A stretch of DNA of 64,000 nucleotides, taken from the NCBI GenBank assembly GCA_904373265.1, contig CAJFEE010000005.1, forward strand, positions 1-64,000, read 5' to 3'. Source of the stretch: Candidatus Harrysmithiimonas galli. GTDB lineage: Bacteria > Bacillota > Bacilli > CAJFEE01. A program made the translations under genes and the position numbers. Below, one piece after another: positions 42,972-64,000 of the stretch (positions within the stretch are counted from its first letter, which is position 1; every line of letters starts with the position of its first letter). The notes under the pieces were generated by a model, which worked only from the letters and a program-made list of their open reading frames with translations, did no database searches and had not been told where the DNA came from.

Positions 42972-43841
42972 TTACAATTGGTAAATCAATTGTTTACGAA
43001 AACATTCTTGAATTTTTTTCGTAATGGGTCCAACAACTCCATTAGAAATGATTTTTTCTTCATCTTTTATACCTGTAAAATCTGCATCTACTAAAATTGA
43101 TGTACAAGGAACAATTTCGAAAATTGAATTGGTTGAAAAAGCCTCATCTGCATGCAATAAGTCTTTATAGGTAAATGGCATTTCAATAATTTGTAAATGT
43201 AGTTGTTTTGCATAATCCAAAACCAAACTTCGAGTTACACCAGCTAAAATCAGATGATTTATGGGATGTGTGTATAGGATTTGGTTTTTCACAATAAACA
43301 TATTGGATGTTGCACATTCTGTGACATAGCCATCACGGACTAGAATGGTTTCATCACAACCTTTTTGTACTCCACGACTTTTTATCCAAACAGCGGCTTG
43401 CAGACTTACACTTTTGATGTGACATTTTTTCCAGCGAAAATCCTCATATACCAGATGTTTGCTGCCTTTTTCCGGACAGGCAACCGATTTGGGTGTTTCA
43501 AACGGAAGCATCACCCAATGACAAGTATAATTTTGTCCTGTGTATACATGCCATCTTGGACCACTTCCTCGGCTGATTTGCAAATAAATATAGCCATCTG
43601 CATATGGAACTTCGTCTATTAAACTTTGCATTGCAACCAAAAATTGTTCACTGGTAGTTTCACAATTCATCTCCATTTCTTTGATGCCATTAAACAATCG
43701 CTTCATATGACGCTCTGGATAACGAGGTCTTCGGTTATAAAAGCGAATGACTTCATATAAACCATCGCCAAATAAATAGGAGCGATCTTCCCAGAATTTG
43801 TTTGCAGCGGCTTCATTCAGCTTTTTGCCATTAAACAACAT
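42972..43841 (-). CDS. dat: D-amino-acid aminotransferase (class IV)
   Basis: PLP enzyme of fold type IV, probably interconverting D-alanine and D-glutamate for cell-wall synthesis. The 289-aa protein has the cofactor lysine in CHIKSVSLQAA (Lys143), the RxH carboxylate trap in GPRWHVY (Arg96, His98) known from D-alanine aminotransferase, and GYVTECATSNMFIV binding the phosphate. Branched-chain and lyase class IV enzymes lack that RxH pattern, so the D-amino-acid call is favoured. Upstream ATGs at 43865 and 43856 lack ribosome sites. GGAGAG lies eight bases before the ATG at 43841. It ends about 135 bases before the metQNI promoter on the same strand. Confidence 0.88.
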   Translation of the reverse strand: MLFNGKKLNEAAANKFWEDRSYLFGDGLYEVIRFYNRRPRYPERHMKRLFNGIKEMEMNCETTSEQFLVAMQSLIDEVPYADGYIYLQISRGSGPRWHVYTGQNYTCHWVMLPFETPKSVACPEKGSKHLVYEDFRWKKCHIKSVSLQAAVWIKSRGVQKGCDETILVRDGYVTECATSNMFIVKNQILYTHPINHLILAGVTRSLVLDYAKQLHLQIIEMPFTYKDLLHADEAFSTNSIFEIVPCTSILVDADFTGIKDEEKIISNGVVGPITKKIQECFRKQLIYQL

Positions 43842-44658
43842 GTTAATTCTCTCCATTTCTTTCAAATATTATTTAGAATTCAAAAAATAAAAGATATGAC
43901 ATTTATTTTTATCTTACAGCATAAATATTTTGACTTCCCTATTCGCTATTCTAATCTTATTTCATGTCACTGTAAAATTTTTCCTTCAAATGCTTCCATG
44001 TATTCTGACAAATGTTCTAGCAATTCATTTTTCCATAAAACATTCTGTACATATAAAATAAGCTAAATAATTGTCAAGCTATACGGCAAGGAATTTCTTA
44101 GTAGTTACAGGAAACAAAAACCCTTGTTCTTGTAAACAAATATTTTTCAATGATAAAGTTTATAAAAGTAAGAAAGATGAATAGAGGTAAAACCTCATAC
44201 GAAATTTTATATCATCGTTCGTTTTTTCTTTAAAATGAAAGCCATTGGGTTCAGTCTTCATTTTCGAAAAAAAATCGATATCCAGATAAATGGTCAATAT
44301 AATTTTAAGCTCTACTTCAATCAATATATTTTTAATAATTCATTATTTTTATCAATTCAATTGAAGGTATTTTCCAAAGAATCCATTATTGTAGTATAAA
44401 AGATTGATATCATAAAGATCTTCTTTTTCCGTCAAATATTTCTGAAATAAAAAATGAATATGTATTGTCCTTTTTAAATCCTTTATCCTCTTTACAAAAC
44501 TGAGTATAGGGCTGTAACTGTAACAATGTCTTTCCTTATACTCATAGCATATATATTTTGTTATTCAATTTTTTCTTATAAAATATAATATTTTGTATAG
44601 TAGAATCTATTGTTTTTTTATGTTATACTGAGCAAAAATGAATTTGTTAGGAGGCTTT
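43842..44658. other. Gene-free intergenic region
   Basis: About 800 AT-rich bases between divergent genes. A GAGTATA ... TATACTC inverted repeat near 44503-44545 may form a hairpin. A TATACT 36 bases before the next gene could be its -10 box, but no good -35 accompanies it. No gene recognised. Confidence 0.45.
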
Positions 44659-49793: not shown

Positions 49794-49834
49794 AAACAGA
49801 AGGCGGTACCATTTTTTGGCACAACCTCCTGTTT
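49794..49834 (-). terminator. Imperfect terminator between amidase and symporter genes
   Basis: AACAGGAGGTTGTGCC and GGTACCGCCTTCTGTT pair with a few mismatches around AAAAAAT, followed by TTGC on the minus strand. It lies 14 bases after the amidase stop. Its T-run is short, so readthrough into the symporter gene is possible. Confidence 0.65.
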
Positions 49835-49847
49835 AAAATAATCTATT

Positions 49848-51392
49848 TTATATTTCAGAATTTGATAAAGCAGCATCCGATGTTTGTTTTGCGTCCTGCG
49901 TATCCTCAGATGTAGTTTCTAATTGATCTGGTTCATGCACTTCCATCGGATAAAACTCTTGTAAATCTTTTAACAACATGACACCCGTTTTTCCCAATGT
50001 ACTGAATTCATTTGATTCTGATGCAACAAATGGTGTGTCACCTACTTTAATTGCGAACTTTAATTGTGGTACAGCCACTCCATCTGAATCACGCAACATA
50101 TATTTTTCATTTGCGGTTGCATGAATAGATAGGTTTATAGCCTCCGATAAATTCCCGGCATACTTTCGCATAACCGTGTATTTCGCACGATCATCTGCTA
50201 CGGAGAAAACAAATGTATTCTTTGTTGCCTCGGTAAGAACTAAGCTGTATACATAATTATCGGTTTCTATTTCATTGTGAATCACTATGGGTACATGACC
50301 TGTTCCCATCACCTTTTTCACATCACGAATCAATGTTTCCTTTGACTTTTTAATTCGCTTTAACGCATTGGTTGGATCGGTTCTCCTTGTTGGATCAAGC
50401 TCCTCATGCCCAACAATTTTCGTTGATGGATCCAATTCATAGGTTGTACATAAATTGGCAATCACTTTTACATAATTTTGATATGCTTTCAAGCTGCGGC
50501 TATAATCCCCAGAAAAATAACAAAGCTCAATACCAATTGCCGCATCATTAGCATTATAGCTAAATAGACGGTTGTCCGTAGTTACATTATAACGTACATG
50601 CCATGCTTTTTCATTTAATGGAATGGTTAAAACCGATTCTTTATTATCTACGAAAATATGAGCACTTGCCGAAACTGAATTGGCACTGTTTTTATAATAA
50701 TCTACATTATTCTTAGCGGTTGAATTATTATTTCCTGTATCATGTGCCACAATAAATTGAGGGCCGATTAATGAGCTACCACTTCGGCGCGCCGTCTTTA
50801 CTGGAATATAATCATGACGAAAAGTCGCATTCAGTGCATCAACTGTCAAGCGGTTGGCTCCTCCAGTAAAAGGCTTTAAATCATAAGCCGTTGTAGGAAT
50901 AAACACAAATGAAATATGATCAAGCATTTGTTTGATATTTACACCGTCAATTTCTGCATCGTTTGCATATGCCTGTGCATATTGCTCCAGCATCTGCATG
51001 GTATATAAGGTGGTATTCCAATCTTTCGCTGTAAAGGAATTGCTGATCAAAACTTTTTTTTCACCGTTTCCTAGTGTAATTTTATAGATTTTATTTTTCA
51101 CACCATCATCTAAAGCTTCAACCTGCAAAAATGGATAAGCTTCCTCAAGCAAATTTAAATCGTCCAACATTTTTTGATAGCTGTATTCAGCGTTTGAGGT
51201 TACAATTCGCTCAAATGTTTCATCGTTTTCAGAAACCAAAATCGGTGTGTTCGGTACTTCAGGAGTCTCAGAAGATGGAACGAATGTATCAGACGCTTCA
51301 GAAATCTCAAAGGCCAATGACTGAGTTGGTAAAAATACTAGACCGACTAAAATGCAAATGTTACATAAATAAACCTGAATTCTTTTTTTCAT
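49848..51392 (-). CDS. Exported amidase with degenerate M14-peptidase domain
   Basis: Secreted 514-aa protein with a signal peptide (about residues 1-28). Residues 65-185 follow the pattern of M14 zinc carboxypeptidases: YSYQKMLDDLNLLEEAYPFL, KKVLISNSFTAKDWNTT and FVFIPTTAYD. The zinc motif H-x-x-E is replaced (Thr121, Asp124 in FTAKDW instead of HHAREW), so this domain should be inactive. Residues 210-350 are an Amidase_2 domain with HDTG (His217), PLNEKAWHVRYN, IGIELCY (Glu289), VGHEEL (His329) and RTDP (Asp339), predicted to cut N-acetylmuramoyl-L-alanine bonds. The C-terminal 150 residues are of unknown fold, ending in a low-complexity S/T/D/E tail. GGAAGGGGAAGG precedes the ATG at 51392. 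The M14 part probably binds peptide stems. Confidence 0.85.
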   Translation of the reverse strand: MKKRIQVYLCNICILVGLVFLPTQSLAFEISEASDTFVPSSETPEVPNTPILVSENDETFERIVTSNAEYSYQKMLDDLNLLEEAYPFLQVEALDDGVKNKIYKITLGNGEKKVLISNSFTAKDWNTTLYTMQMLEQYAQAYANDAEIDGVNIKQMLDHISFVFIPTTAYDLKPFTGGANRLTVDALNATFRHDYIPVKTARRSGSSLIGPQFIVAHDTGNNNSTAKNNVDYYKNSANSVSASAHIFVDNKESVLTIPLNEKAWHVRYNVTTDNRLFSYNANDAAIGIELCYFSGDYSRSLKAYQNYVKVIANLCTTYELDPSTKIVGHEELDPTRRTDPTNALKRIKKSKETLIRDVKKVMGTGHVPIVIHNEIETDNYVYSLVLTEATKNTFVFSVADDRAKYTVMRKYAGNLSEAINLSIHATANEKYMLRDSDGVAVPQLKFAIKVGDTPFVASESNEFSTLGKTGVMLLKDLQEFYPMEVHEPDQLETTSEDTQDAKQTSDAALSNSEI

Positions 51393-51640
51393 TATTTTTA
51401 CCTTCCCCTTCCTTATAAATCAAACAAGTCCGCTTTTTATTATAGCAAATTTTACAAGAATGTGGTTATTTTTTACAGAAATTTCATCCCAACGACTTTA
51501 TTTTCTCTCTTTCTTTCTTAAGCAACAACAAATATGAAAACCAACAAAAAACGAGTTGAGTGAACAAAAATTTCTTGCATAAATAACAGTTGCAACGGAA
51601 CAAATTTTTCATATTAAGTATTCTTCTCCATTTAAAAATA
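51393..51640. other. Divergent intergenic region before nrdI
   Basis: Between the amidase and nrdI genes, which are divergent. The nrd promoter lies at its right end (separate entry). A 102-codon minus-strand frame (51484-51792) overlaps nrdI and lacks a ribosome site, so I do not count it. Confidence 0.4.
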
Positions 51641-51738: not shown

Positions 51739-52098
51739 ATGAAAGTTTATTTTGATAGTTGCACAGGAAATGTTGCCCGCTTTTCTGCACATCTTCCGTT
51801 TCCGATTGAAAAAATTGAGGAAATGACAAAATCCGATGAGCCTTATGTTTTAATTACGTATACAACCAATTTTGGGCAGGTTCCGGAAAAGACAGAAAAA
51901 TTTCTCAAAAATAACGGGCATTTACTAAAAGGTGTCGTAGCTAGTGGGAATAAAAATTGGGGGACATTTTATGGCAAAAGCGGAGATATTATTTCTGAAA
52001 TGTATCAAGTTCCCTTGCTTCATAAATTTGAACTATCCGGAACCAAAAGAGATCAAATTATTGTAAAAGAAAAAATCAAGGAGATTGAACATGCTTGA
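51739..52098 (+). CDS. nrdI: NrdI flavodoxin-like protein
   Basis: FMN protein that supplies superoxide or peroxide to build the dimanganese-tyrosyl cofactor of NrdF. The 119-aa protein starts MKVYFDSCTGNVARFSA, giving the flavin phosphate loop (S-x-T-G-N), and has VLITYTTNFGQVP and VASGNKNWGTFYGKSGDIIS around the flavin. AAAGGTGTGAGAG precedes the ATG at 51739. It overlaps the start of nrdE by eight bases and heads the nrdIEF operon. Confidence 0.95.
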   Translation: MKVYFDSCTGNVARFSAHLPFPIEKIEEMTKSDEPYVLITYTTNFGQVPEKTEKFLKNNGHLLKGVVASGNKNWGTFYGKSGDIISEMYQVPLLHKFELSGTKRDQIIVKEKIKEIEHA

Positions 52099-54184
52099 GC
52101 ATATAAAAAAAAATAATGAGATTATGAAACAGGCAGATGGATTTTATCGATTGGAAAAAGATAAAGAAGCCATCGCTTTATTTTTGGAAGAAATTGAAAA
52201 AAAACGAATGAAATTTACGACATTAGAAGAACGCTTCCAATATTTAATTGATCATGAATACTATTATAACTTATTTACAGTTGATGGTTATACCATGGAT
52301 GACATTCAGGCAGTTTATGCAGCCATCAAAGCAGTTCCATTTCAATTTCAAAGTTATATGTCCATTTCTAAATTTTATAAAGACTACGCGCTGCAAACTT
52401 TTGATAAGCAATTTTATTTGGAAGATTATGCAGATCGAATTGCAATTGTTGCGCTCTTTTTGGCACGTGGCAATACGGAAAAAGCGGTTGAATATGCACG
52501 TGAAATGATTGCACAAAACTATCAACCTGCAACACCAACTTTTCTCAATGCTGGAAGAAAAAGAGGTGGTGAACTTGTTAGCTGCTTTTTATTAGAAGTT
52601 GATGACACATTAAACTCTATTGGCTTTAACATTGAAACCAGTATGCAGCTTTCCAAAATTGGTGGCGGTGTTGCGCTAAATCTTTCCAAAATTCGTGGGC
52701 GTGGTGAAAGCATTCGGGATGTAAAAGGTGCAGCAAGTGGTGTAATGCCAGTTGTTAAGCTGCTTGAAGATACGTTTTCTTATGTGAATCAGCTTGGTCA
52801 AAGAAAAGGTGCTGGTGCGGCTTATTTACATATTTTTCATTGGGATATTGAAGAATTTCTTGATTGCAAAAAAATTAATTCCGATGAAAAAACAAGAATT
52901 CAAGGCTTGTCCATTGGTGTAATTTGTCCGCATAAATTTTTTGAGCTGGCAAAGCACAATCAAGATGTTTATGTATTTGCCCCTCACTCAGTTCAAAGGG
53001 TGTATGGCATGCCTTTAGATGAAATGAATATGCAAGAAATGTATGACGTGCTCATACAGGATACACGAATTTTAAAAAGAAAATGGATGAATGCTCGAGA
53101 GATTCTTGGAAAAATTGCAATGCTGCAGCTTGAATCTGGATATCCTTATATTGTTTATCATACCAATGCCAACAATCAACATCCATTAAAAAATTTGGGT
53201 TCGATTAAAATGAGCAATCTTTGTACGGAAATTTTTCAGCTTCAGGAAACGAGTATCATTCACGATTATGGACTTCCAGATGAAATTAAACGAGATATTT
53301 GTTGCAATCTTGGCTCTTTAAATATCGTTAACGTGATGGAAAACCAATCCATTCGAGAATCTGTTTATCGTGCAATGGACATGCTGACTGCTGTCAGTGA
53401 TTTAAGTGATATTTCTAATGCGCCATCAATTTTCAAAGCCAATCAAGAGCTACATTCTGTTGGATTAGGTGTCATGAACTTACACGGATTTTTTGCGAAA
53501 AATAAAATTCGTTATGAGTCAGAAGAAGCAAAAGAATTTGCCAACTTGTTTTTTATGACAGTAAATTATCATTCTATCGAAAGAAGTATGCAGATTGCCA
53601 TGGAGACGGGAAAATGCTTTCAAGGCTTTAGGCAATCAGATTACGGAACAGGGGTTTATTTTGATTTCTATACGGAAAAAAACATCTCCCCTACTTCTGA
53701 ACAAATTACAGAACTGTTCAAAGAAATTTTTATTCCGTCAAAGGAAGATTGGATGAAACTAAAAGAACAGGTGATGAAGAATGGTCTATACCATGCATAC
53801 CGGATGGCCATTGCTCCGACCGGATCCATTTCTTATTTACAAAATAGCACTTCTTCTGTGATGCCTATTACAAATGTGATTGAAACAAGAACATACGAAA
53901 ATGCAATGACTTACTATCCGATGCCTTATTTAACAAAGGAAACTTATTGGTATTATGCAAAAACTGCCTATGATATGGATATGATGAAACTGATTGATTT
54001 GATTTCTGTTATTCAAAAACATGTCGATCAAGGCATTAGCTGTACATTATTTGTTCATAGTGATATTTCTACACGCGAACTGGCAAAATATTACATATAT
54101 GCTGAGCATAAAGGACTCAAATCCCTTTATTATACAAGAACCAATAAGAAAAATATTGAAGAATGCCTAAGCTGTTCCGTATAA
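52091..54184 (+). CDS. nrdE: Class Ib ribonucleotide reductase alpha subunit NrdE
   Basis: Catalytic subunit reducing ribonucleoside diphosphates. The 697-aa protein lacks an N-terminal ATP cone, as usual for NrdE. The catalytic redox cysteine is in ELVSCFLLEVDD (Cys165), the radical-site region in MSNLCTEIFQL, the AIAPTGSISYLQNSTSS loop is present, and the C-terminal shuttle pair is Cys692/Cys695 (ECLSCSV). A TTG two codons upstream also opens the frame, but AAGGAG seven bases before the ATG at 52091 decides the start. It is translationally coupled to nrdI and followed by nrdF. Confidence 0.96.
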   Translation: MLEHIKKNNEIMKQADGFYRLEKDKEAIALFLEEIEKKRMKFTTLEERFQYLIDHEYYYNLFTVDGYTMDDIQAVYAAIKAVPFQFQSYMSISKFYKDYALQTFDKQFYLEDYADRIAIVALFLARGNTEKAVEYAREMIAQNYQPATPTFLNAGRKRGGELVSCFLLEVDDTLNSIGFNIETSMQLSKIGGGVALNLSKIRGRGESIRDVKGAASGVMPVVKLLEDTFSYVNQLGQRKGAGAAYLHIFHWDIEEFLDCKKINSDEKTRIQGLSIGVICPHKFFELAKHNQDVYVFAPHSVQRVYGMPLDEMNMQEMYDVLIQDTRILKRKWMNAREILGKIAMLQLESGYPYIVYHTNANNQHPLKNLGSIKMSNLCTEIFQLQETSIIHDYGLPDEIKRDICCNLGSLNIVNVMENQSIRESVYRAMDMLTAVSDLSDISNAPSIFKANQELHSVGLGVMNLHGFFAKNKIRYESEEAKEFANLFFMTVNYHSIERSMQIAMETGKCFQGFRQSDYGTGVYFDFYTEKNISPTSEQITELFKEIFIPSKEDWMKLKEQVMKNGLYHAYRMAIAPTGSISYLQNSTSSVMPITNVIETRTYENAMTYYPMPYLTKETYWYYAKTAYDMDMMKLIDLISVIQKHVDQGISCTLFVHSDISTRELAKYYIYAEHKGLKSLYYTRTNKKNIEECLSCSV

Positions 54185-54241
54185 TAGTCATAGTTAAAAT
54201 ATCTAACAAAACAGGCGAATCATTACTTGGAGGAAAAACGA

Positions 54242-55216
54242 ATGACAAACAAACATTCTGCTGTCAACTGGAATGAAGAACAAGATCCTTATACACAAAT
54301 GTTTTGGAAACAAAATATTATGCAGTTTTGGATTGATGAGGAAATTCCAGTTTCACAGGATAAAAATGTATGGATGGAGCTGGCAAAAAATGAGCAGGAA
54401 ACTTATAAAAAAGTTCTGGCTGGTTTAACCTTGCTTGATACAAAACAAGGCGGTGAAGGAATGCCGCTTATTTCTCTGCATATCGAAAATCTGCAACAAA
54501 AAGCACTTTTAACCTTTATGGCGGGTATGGAACAAATTCATGCCAAATCATATAGTACCATTTTCACAACAATTGCCTCCAATGAAGAAATCCAAAAACT
54601 TTTTTTATGGACGGAGGAAAACGAATACTTACAAAAAAAGGCTGAAATGATCTCCAATCAATACATCAATCTTTGGCAGCCGAAGGTTTCAAAGGAAGTT
54701 TTATTTCAAGCCTTGGTTGCCTCCGTTTTTCTTGAATCTTTTTTATTTTACAGTGGCTTTTTTTATCCGCTTTTTTTGGCAGGTCAAGGCAAAATGACAA
54801 ACAGTGGAGAAATTATTAACTTAATTATTCGAGATGAATCCATTCATGGCGTTTATGTTGGTTTGCTTGCGCAATCGATTTACCAATCTTTTTCTACAGA
54901 AAAGCAATCTGAAATGTTTGCTTGGACACAAGACTTTCTAGATGCACTGATGAAAAACGAAAAAAAATATACAAAGCAGCTTTATGATGCCATTGGTCTA
55001 ACAGATGAGGTGAACGCATTTCTCATTTATAATGCCAATAAATCCATGATGAATCTCGGATTTGAACCAATTTATGATGCTGTTGAAATCAATCCGATTA
55101 TTGAAAATGGGTTACAGACCAATACAAAAACACATGACTTTTTCTCGCAAAAGGGAAACGGTTATATAAAAGCCATTTATGTTGAGCCTTTACAGGATGA
55201 AGACTTTATTTTTTAA
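54242..55216 (+). CDS. nrdF: Class Ib ribonucleotide reductase beta subunit NrdF
   Basis: Radical-generating subunit with a dimetal centre. The 324-aa protein keeps all ligands: Asp66 (LTLLDT), Glu97 and His100 (GMEQIHAKSY), Glu165 (FLESF), Glu199 and His202 (RDESIHGVY), and the radical tyrosine Tyr104. A TTG at 54227 extends the frame, but GGAGG lies eight bases before the ATG at 54242. With NrdI encoded in the operon, a manganese cofactor is likely. The gap to nrdE is 57 bases. Confidence 0.96.
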   Translation: MTNKHSAVNWNEEQDPYTQMFWKQNIMQFWIDEEIPVSQDKNVWMELAKNEQETYKKVLAGLTLLDTKQGGEGMPLISLHIENLQQKALLTFMAGMEQIHAKSYSTIFTTIASNEEIQKLFLWTEENEYLQKKAEMISNQYINLWQPKVSKEVLFQALVASVFLESFLFYSGFFYPLFLAGQGKMTNSGEIINLIIRDESIHGVYVGLLAQSIYQSFSTEKQSEMFAWTQDFLDALMKNEKKYTKQLYDAIGLTDEVNAFLIYNANKSMMNLGFEPIYDAVEINPIIENGLQTNTKTHDFFSQKGNGYIKAIYVEPLQDEDFIF

Positions 55217-62952: not shown

Positions 62953-64000
62953 TTATTCATCGCTTGGTGTAAACATAATTTGTGTACGCTCTGTTAAATT
63001 TCCGTTTTGCACTTGGATTTTTCCAATCACTTCAAAACCGATTTTTGCCCGACCAATTTGAAAGGAAAATTCAGCAATCCCATCGCCATTGGTCTTTGTT
63101 GTATAAACTGTTTCTTTAGAAGCAAAAAATAAAGTCAAAGTAACATTTGCATTTGAGATGGGCTGTTTTTTTTCGTCAATTACTGTAACAGTAACCGTTT
63201 CATTTTCATTTTGCTTTGGTGATGAATTGCTGATTTTCGCATTGATGTATAACTGTGATGTTGCAGCACTTACATCCTCCGTTTTCATATCAGAATTTGA
63301 AGTTGCATCTTCAACTTTATGATCTGACTCATTTGATATATCTGAACTAAGCGATTGATCATCTGCACTGGCTATTTTTCCAGCTGTTTTCTGGTTCACT
63401 GTGTAAACACCTGTCTGGATATCTGTGCTTACTACAATATTGCCAAGCTCGTCATTGCGGTAAATTTCTGTTCCAGATTGCTCCAATCGCTTTAAGGTTC
63501 CCTCATGTGGATGACCATATGAATTATCCTTACCCGATTGAATGATGCCAATTTTTGGTGTAACTGCTTGCAGAAATTTGGTGCTGGATGTACCATCTGA
63601 ACCATGATGTGGTACAAGTAGTACATCAACATCCAGATTTTCATGACTGTCTAATAGAAGTTGCTCGGCTTCTCCTTCAATATCTCCAGTCAATAAAAAC
63701 GAAGCTTTTCCACAAGCTGTTTTTACAACAACACTCATTTCATTAGAATCTTTGCTCATTTGTATCGGTGCTAGCATTTCGATTTCACAAGATGAATCTA
63801 TATCCAACGTAACACCAGCTTTTGCAGATTGAACAACCAGCCCTTTCGCTTTGGATGAAGCGAGTACACTTTTAAATGTGTCGGTCGTTACAGAAATGGG
63901 CGGCATATAAAAACTTTTGACATCAAACGCATCAATAACCGCATCAATTCCGCCAATATGATCTGCATCTGGATGTGTACCAATTAGCACATCAATTTCT
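62953..64000 (-). CDS. ComEC-like metallo-beta-lactamase hydrolase, N-terminally cut
   Basis: Partial gene: the frame runs through the right edge of the window (EIDVLIGTHPDADHIGG continues upstream), so the start is missing. The visible N-terminal part is a metallo-beta-lactamase domain with THPDADHIGG (metal ligands), LLTGDIEGEAE, LLVPHHGSDGTSS and the closing SYGHPHEGTLKRL, the pattern of the soluble ComEC-type domain. A S/D-rich linker (about 60 residues) leads to a C-terminal Ig-like domain (ENETVTVTVIDEKKQPISN and GDGIAEFSFQIG). The linker and Ig domain suggest a secreted stand-alone hydrolase rather than the ComEC channel. Substrate unknown; DNA or phosphodiesters are possible. Confidence 0.88.
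   Translation of the reverse strand, partial: EIDVLIGTHPDADHIGGIDAVIDAFDVKSFYMPPISVTTDTFKSVLASSKAKGLVVQSAKAGVTLDIDSSCEIEMLAPIQMSKDSNEMSVVVKTACGKASFLLTGDIEGEAEQLLLDSHENLDVDVLLVPHHGSDGTSSTKFLQAVTPKIGIIQSGKDNSYGHPHEGTLKRLEQSGTEIYRNDELGNIVVSTDIQTGVYTVNQKTAGKIASADDQSLSSDISNESDHKVEDATSNSDMKTEDVSAATSQLYINAKISNSSPKQNENETVTVTVIDEKKQPISNANVTLTLFFASKETVYTTKTNGDGIAEFSFQIGRAKIGFEVIGKIQVQNGNLTERTQIMFTPSDE

Follow-up and report, generated by a model that had tools for sequence, protein, structure and literature searches.

A phage-endolysin-type amidase fused to the first third of an M14 carboxypeptidase domain in a single Bacilli genome

Introduction

The closest described relatives of the protein reported here are endolysin-type Amidase_2 enzymes, such as PlyL, PlyG and XlyA and the lysins of staphylococcal jumbo phages. 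These proteins begin with the amidase, carry no signal peptide and usually continue into a known wall-binding domain. A phage-type lysin normally waits inside the cell for the holin. A further point of comparison is provided by the bifunctional autolysins Atl/AmiA of Staphylococcus aureus, in which an exported Amidase_2 domain acts on the cell's own wall.

The M14 metallocarboxypeptidases (PF00246) are represented in Bacilli by carboxypeptidase T-like enzymes. The reference residues of the family are H69, E72, H196, R127, R145 and E270, and M14 pseudopeptidases, namely AEBP1/ACLP, CPXM1/2, domain III of CPD and Ecm14, are extracellular proteins that have lost at least one catalytic residue (PMC11266112).

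Here, we describe a gene from Candidatus Harrysmithiimonas galli that joins parts of both families. It lies in a window of 64,000 nucleotides, the whole stretch of DNA that was analysed. The encoded protein shares fold, zinc ligands and catalytic glutamate with the endolysin-type amidases (24-27% identity to PlyG, PlyL and XlyA in the structural match). Unlike these, it has a predicted signal peptide and an M14 remnant ahead of the amidase, and an unassigned tail behind it. Like Atl/AmiA, it would be an exported Amidase_2 enzyme acting on its own wall (~22% identity, structural match); those autolysins lack an M14-derived part, and their repeats are different. With the Bacilli M14 enzymes, the closest of which is encoded in the related genome G001, it has in common the first third of the domain, the type of linker and the position of the signal peptide. 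Whereas the G001 enzyme is intact and continues into Ig domains, the M14 segment of the fusion has lost its zinc motif and two thirds of the domain, and an amidase is attached. As in the pseudopeptidases, the segment is M14-derived, has lost catalytic residues and is probably extracellular. AEBP1/ACLP-type proteins, however, are eukaryotic, have an unrelated architecture and retain the whole domain rather than one third of it.

Results

The fusion gene is a single uninterrupted open reading frame of 514 codons, present once in the genome (Table 1). The hairpin behind its stop codon has a 16-bp stem (-23.5 kcal/mol, z -5.1). It was not listed by a simple terminator scan, probably because of its internal mismatches. 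As the stop codon is followed by this hairpin and a T-rich tail, the gene is probably transcribed alone.

The original prediction had placed the gene beside an alanine/glycine symporter and an aminotransferase, and had taken both to fit wall-peptide recycling. The adjoining downstream gene does encode a sodium:alanine symporter (Pfam, 5.4e-154). The class IV aminotransferase (Aminotran_4, 42972-43865), in turn, lies ~6 kb off, beyond an amino-acid ABC transporter. The pathway argument is weak, because the fusion gene likely has its own terminator and its neighbours are general amino-acid transport genes. We likewise dismissed a functional link with the metabolism of D-amino acids as weak, given that the hairpin behind the stop codon sets the gene apart from these neighbours. 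An anti-phage defence role was set aside, as PADLOC gave no match.

Upstream and divergent, at window positions 51739-55216 (+), are NrdI (assigned by Pfam) and two ribonucleotide reductase genes (assigned by reading the translations). A search of G001 for NrdI, run without a positive control, gave no match. At 62953-63990 (-), reaching the window edge, the window also encodes a protein of metallo-beta-lactamase fold whose C-terminal domain is Ig/CarboxypepD_reg-like.

Table 1. Features of the fusion gene and its flanks; positions refer to the window.
Feature	Position	Strand	Basis
Whole gene, 514 aa: signal peptide, M14 remnant, Amidase_2 and unassigned C-terminal region	49848..51392	(-)	ORF, single copy in genome
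Shine-Dalgarno-like purine-rich stretch AAGGAAGGGGAAGG, ATG 8 nt downstream	51401..51414	(-)	Direct sequence reading
Predicted Sec-type signal peptide, residues 1-27 (KKR, hydrophobic core, TQSLA)	51312..51392	(-)	Predicted from sequence
Pro/Glu/Ser/Thr-rich linker, residues 28-60	51213..51311	(-)	Alignment; tblastn match from residue 37
N-terminal third of M14 carboxypeptidase domain (alpha1-beta1-beta2-beta3-alpha2-alpha3-beta4 region), residues 61-172	50877..51212	(-)	Profile match, 41% identity to G001 M14, element order in model
T121-A-K-D124 replacing zinc motif H-x-x-E	51021..51032	(-)	Alignment; H and E invariant in intact M14 set
PTTAYD, residues 166-171, replacing P-M-V-N-P-D-G; end of M14 similarity	50880..50897	(-)	Alignment
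Junction between M14 remnant and amidase, residues 173-190	50823..50876	(-)	No homology found; low model confidence
Amidase_2 domain, residues 191-360; predicted zinc ligands H217, H329, D339 and catalytic E289	50313..50822	(-)	Pfam, PHROG, alignment, Foldseek
C-terminal region, residues 361-514, no recognised family	49851..50312	(-)	No Pfam match, no significant PDB match
Hairpin (10+6 bp stem) immediately 3' of stop, then T-rich sequence: likely terminator	49795..49833	(-)	RNA fold

The linker resembles that of the intact G001 M14 enzyme (ETTTPETPIETAP...). Behind it, residues 61-167 match a profile built from nine intact M14 enzymes with 102.9 bits, over profile positions 2-110 of 319 only. 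The match stops at the P-M of P-M-V-N-P-D-G, and about two thirds of the M14 domain are absent, including the substrate motif WKANxxGVDLN, the third zinc-binding His and the catalytic Glu of TxE. The counterparts of H196, R127, R145 and E270 fall after this break, and the region that would hold the substrate clamp (N144/R145) and the catalytic Glu270 is missing from the fusion protein. In the third that remains, both zinc residues are substituted (H to T121, E to D124), and G95 and the NPDG part are lost as well. Most of the other invariant scaffold positions, nine in number, are kept (V64, Y70, D78, Y86, P87, G108, T127, P166 and D171).

In a whole-genome tblastn search, residues 37-168 matched the exported M14 enzyme of G001 with an E-value of 5e-23; dozens of further Bacilli have M14 enzymes that align with the segment around residues 61-168. 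With E-values of up to 1 allowed, Pfam found no Peptidase M14 (PF00246) on the full-length protein; the isolated segment reached 16.1 bits, under the curated cut-off of 21.6, and a genome-wide PF00246 search did not list the fusion locus. Despite this sub-threshold score, we regard the homology of residues 61-167 to M14 as secure on the strength of the profile and alignment matches. By the same comparisons, the segment is the N-terminal third only, devoid of metal-binding residues, and such a piece could not hold zinc as M14 enzymes do and would be incapable of peptidase activity. The loss of the H-x-x-E motif stated in the original prediction is thus borne out by the alignment; the whole, dead peptidase fold that it described is not there.

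Relocation of the C-terminal M14 half to another place in the genome was considered and rejected: the sole PF00246 match is a different, intact M14 gene on contig C4 (L057:1399-2352). It encodes a probably cytoplasmic protein of 317 aa in which the HANE motif, the third His and TIEVG are present. Separately, in genome G085 (L055:2725-4036), an M14 gene is split into overlapping frames of 245 and 197 aa in a frameshift-like manner.

In the second half of the protein, residues 211-341 match Amidase_2 (PF01510; E 4.9e-23, 82.3 bits against a curated cut-off of 26) and residues 207-367 a PHROG endolysin family (2.2e-44). We aligned the fusion protein with 19 relatives from Bacillaceae and Paenibacillus, and H217, E289, H329 and D339 are invariant in all 20 sequences. 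By analogy with AmpD and PlyL, we take the two histidines and the aspartate to be zinc ligands and the glutamate to be catalytic. As judged by these matches, the Amidase_2 domain is complete and its active-site residues are intact. The design first suggested for the gene, an apparently complete amidase joined to an M14-derived segment and, given its signal-like N-terminus, probably exported, therefore stands.

The closest amidase relative in the databases is found in G001 (55% identity), and the lysins of large Staphylococcus phages are ~50% identical to the amidase half. A search of the genome-contig collection with residues 65-340 returned amidases only, mostly from Bacillaceae, and one with the whole protein gave no match. 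Among 62 amidase ORFs in the fetched loci, the domain starts within 40 residues of the N-terminus in 57, and no M14 match was found except in the fusion gene itself. A phage endolysin is encoded by a phage, has no signal of its own and places its catalytic domain first. The fusion protein, in contrast, has a hydrophobic, signal-like N-terminus and 186 residues ahead of the amidase, and its gene neighbours serve ribonucleotide reduction and amino-acid transport. The C-terminal tail may, from its position only, be a wall-binding domain. On contig C1 of the source genome (~122-126.5 kb; L059, L060), we observed two further Amidase_2 proteins with SH3-like tails. They adjoin holin-like, tail-fibre-like and serine-recombinase-like ORFs, and the region looks like a prophage or integrated element.

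A single-sequence structure prediction of the protein reached a pLDDT of 36 and was unusable. In a second model, the amidase was built on the 19 homologues and the M14 half without any, and the result was of good quality for the amidase alone. Foldseek searches with the amidase model returned PlyG, PlyL, XlyA and S. aureus AmiA (E 2e-8 to 1e-7), one of the matched PlyL entries being the E90A mutant. The M14 half, with pLDDT mostly 56-80, runs helix-strand-strand-strand-helix-helix, which is the expected M14 order, reached with no homologues as a guide. No M14 protein was among the Foldseek matches listed for this half. Strand 4 and the junction are disordered in the model, and residues 159-187 have a pLDDT below 50. 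In the M14 topology, strands 1-2-4-3 are neighbours in the sheet, and the retained half-sheet could therefore fold. The fragment (~110 residues, half-sheet 1-2-4-3) may have found new use as a stable domain without catalytic function, one that binds peptidoglycan or restrains the amidase, although we regard this as rather unlikely.

The model also bears on the idea that the M14 remnant acts as a prodomain with a regulatory role, or as a partner-binding surface, which would pack on the active site of the amidase or on another exported protein and would restrain or localise the activity until it is removed. An amidase that leaves the cell is a threat to the cell that makes it, so that restraint would be of benefit, and the remnant sits N-terminally, ahead of an apparently flexible junction. 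There is a precedent for a degenerate wall-hydrolase domain acting as a regulator in the inactive LytM-type protein DipM (PMC10336132). The two halves of the model, however, show no confident packing against each other, and no homologue of the arrangement is at hand, so that we regard a prodomain as unlikely.

G001 is the only other genome of the same family and order among those searched, so that the order is represented by two genomes in this set. Its M14 enzyme is intact and exported, with the sequence HHGREW, the same N-terminal layout and then three Ig domains; the M14 segment of the fusion is 41% identical to it over residues 58-167. The amidase of G001 is encoded by a separate gene on a contig other than that of the M14 gene, and has SH3 repeats and no signal peptide. 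This separation speaks for a fusion on the source genome's own lineage and not for a split in G001. In a FastTree tree of M14 N-terminal thirds, computed from one small alignment and to be taken as a hint rather than a test, the fusion segment and the intact G001 enzyme are sisters; the branch of the segment measures 0.88 and that of the G001 enzyme 0.60 (~1.5 times). This hints at a segment that evolves faster, yet without the unconstrained divergence that a long-standing pseudogene should show. The retained identity and a branch only moderately longer than that of the intact sister hint at constraint beyond that on a mere leader, or at a young fusion.

A class-wide sample of 400 Bacilli genomes contained no ORF in which M14 and amidase parts were found together. 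A second fusion was equally absent from 100 genomes of relatives, 50,697 phage records, 72,556 plasmid records and 88 fetched loci, where the sole matches were the fusion gene itself. Pattern scans with the protein and two M14 alignments revealed no relative among the IMG/VR viral contigs. Within the searched collections, this is a one-off gene fusion, so far seen in this genome alone. Its restriction to one genome, together with the loss of the M14 active-site residues, would also suit a fusion that arose by chance and is neutral or decaying, with an M14 part that has no role and a gene that is possibly being lost. Against this, the 514-codon frame is open, a good ribosome-binding sequence and a terminator flank it, the amidase residues are intact and the M14 scaffold is kept; we deem such decay very unlikely.

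An assembly artefact that joined two genes might equally be seen only once, and the source genome is a single draft assembly of 59 contigs. The junction, however, is in frame and well inside a 127-kb contig, and intact versions of the two halves are absent elsewhere in the source genome, which makes an artefact extremely improbable.

Discussion

We consider it probable, if by no means certain, that the gene arose by a fusion specific to this lineage, through which an endolysin-type amidase acquired both its secretion leader and an N-terminal domain without catalytic function from the front of an exported M14 enzyme. The 5' part of an exported M14 gene, comprising signal peptide, linker and the first third of the catalytic domain, would have been fused in frame to an Amidase_2 gene of the phage-endolysin type. 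The encoded enzyme would be a Sec-exported N-acetylmuramoyl-L-alanine amidase, cleaving peptidoglycan at the MurNAc-L-Ala bond, with zinc held by H217, H329 and D339 and with E289 as the catalyst. Its M14 front end would thus turn a holin-dependent lysin into a Sec-exported enzyme, and the M14 domain piece would most likely serve as a non-catalytic spacer, folding or steric element.

The M14 part had originally been proposed to bind stem peptides and guide the amidase, and the alternative to be weighed here is that this part places the enzyme on its substrate by binding stem peptides or the wall. The retained scaffold and the lost zinc ligands recall the pseudopeptidases. Inactive animal M14 domains bind proteins such as collagens (PMC11266112), and M14 enzymes are one known type of cell-wall peptidase (PMC6403190). 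The proposal is weakened, however, because the M14 substrate pocket is absent and not merely dead: the specificity pocket and the clamp for the C-terminal carboxylate (WKANxxGVDLN, third His, TxE) all lie in the missing two thirds. Moreover, the recognisable wall-binding domains of relatives follow the amidase (SH3 in G001; others by reading). We therefore hold a wall-binding role for the remnant to be quite unlikely. It is more likely that the front end helps export or shields the enzyme than that it binds the target. Among the conceivable roles, we rank that of leader or spacer as most likely, followed by that of a regulatory domain and then by that of a stem-peptide binder.

What is new here is the domain combination, in one genome; both parts are common and the amidase chemistry is ordinary. 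In agreement with the original prediction, which knew of no described enzyme of this design, we found no paper on an M14-Amidase_2 fusion enzyme in the open-access literature, and none of the papers listed there names both Amidase_2 and Peptidase_M14.

The case rests on a single genome. If real and expressed, the fusion would exemplify how a bacterium can make a phage-type lysin into a secreted enzyme with the N-terminal part of a different exported protein. It would likewise be a test of whether one third of the M14 fold can survive as a domain in its own right.
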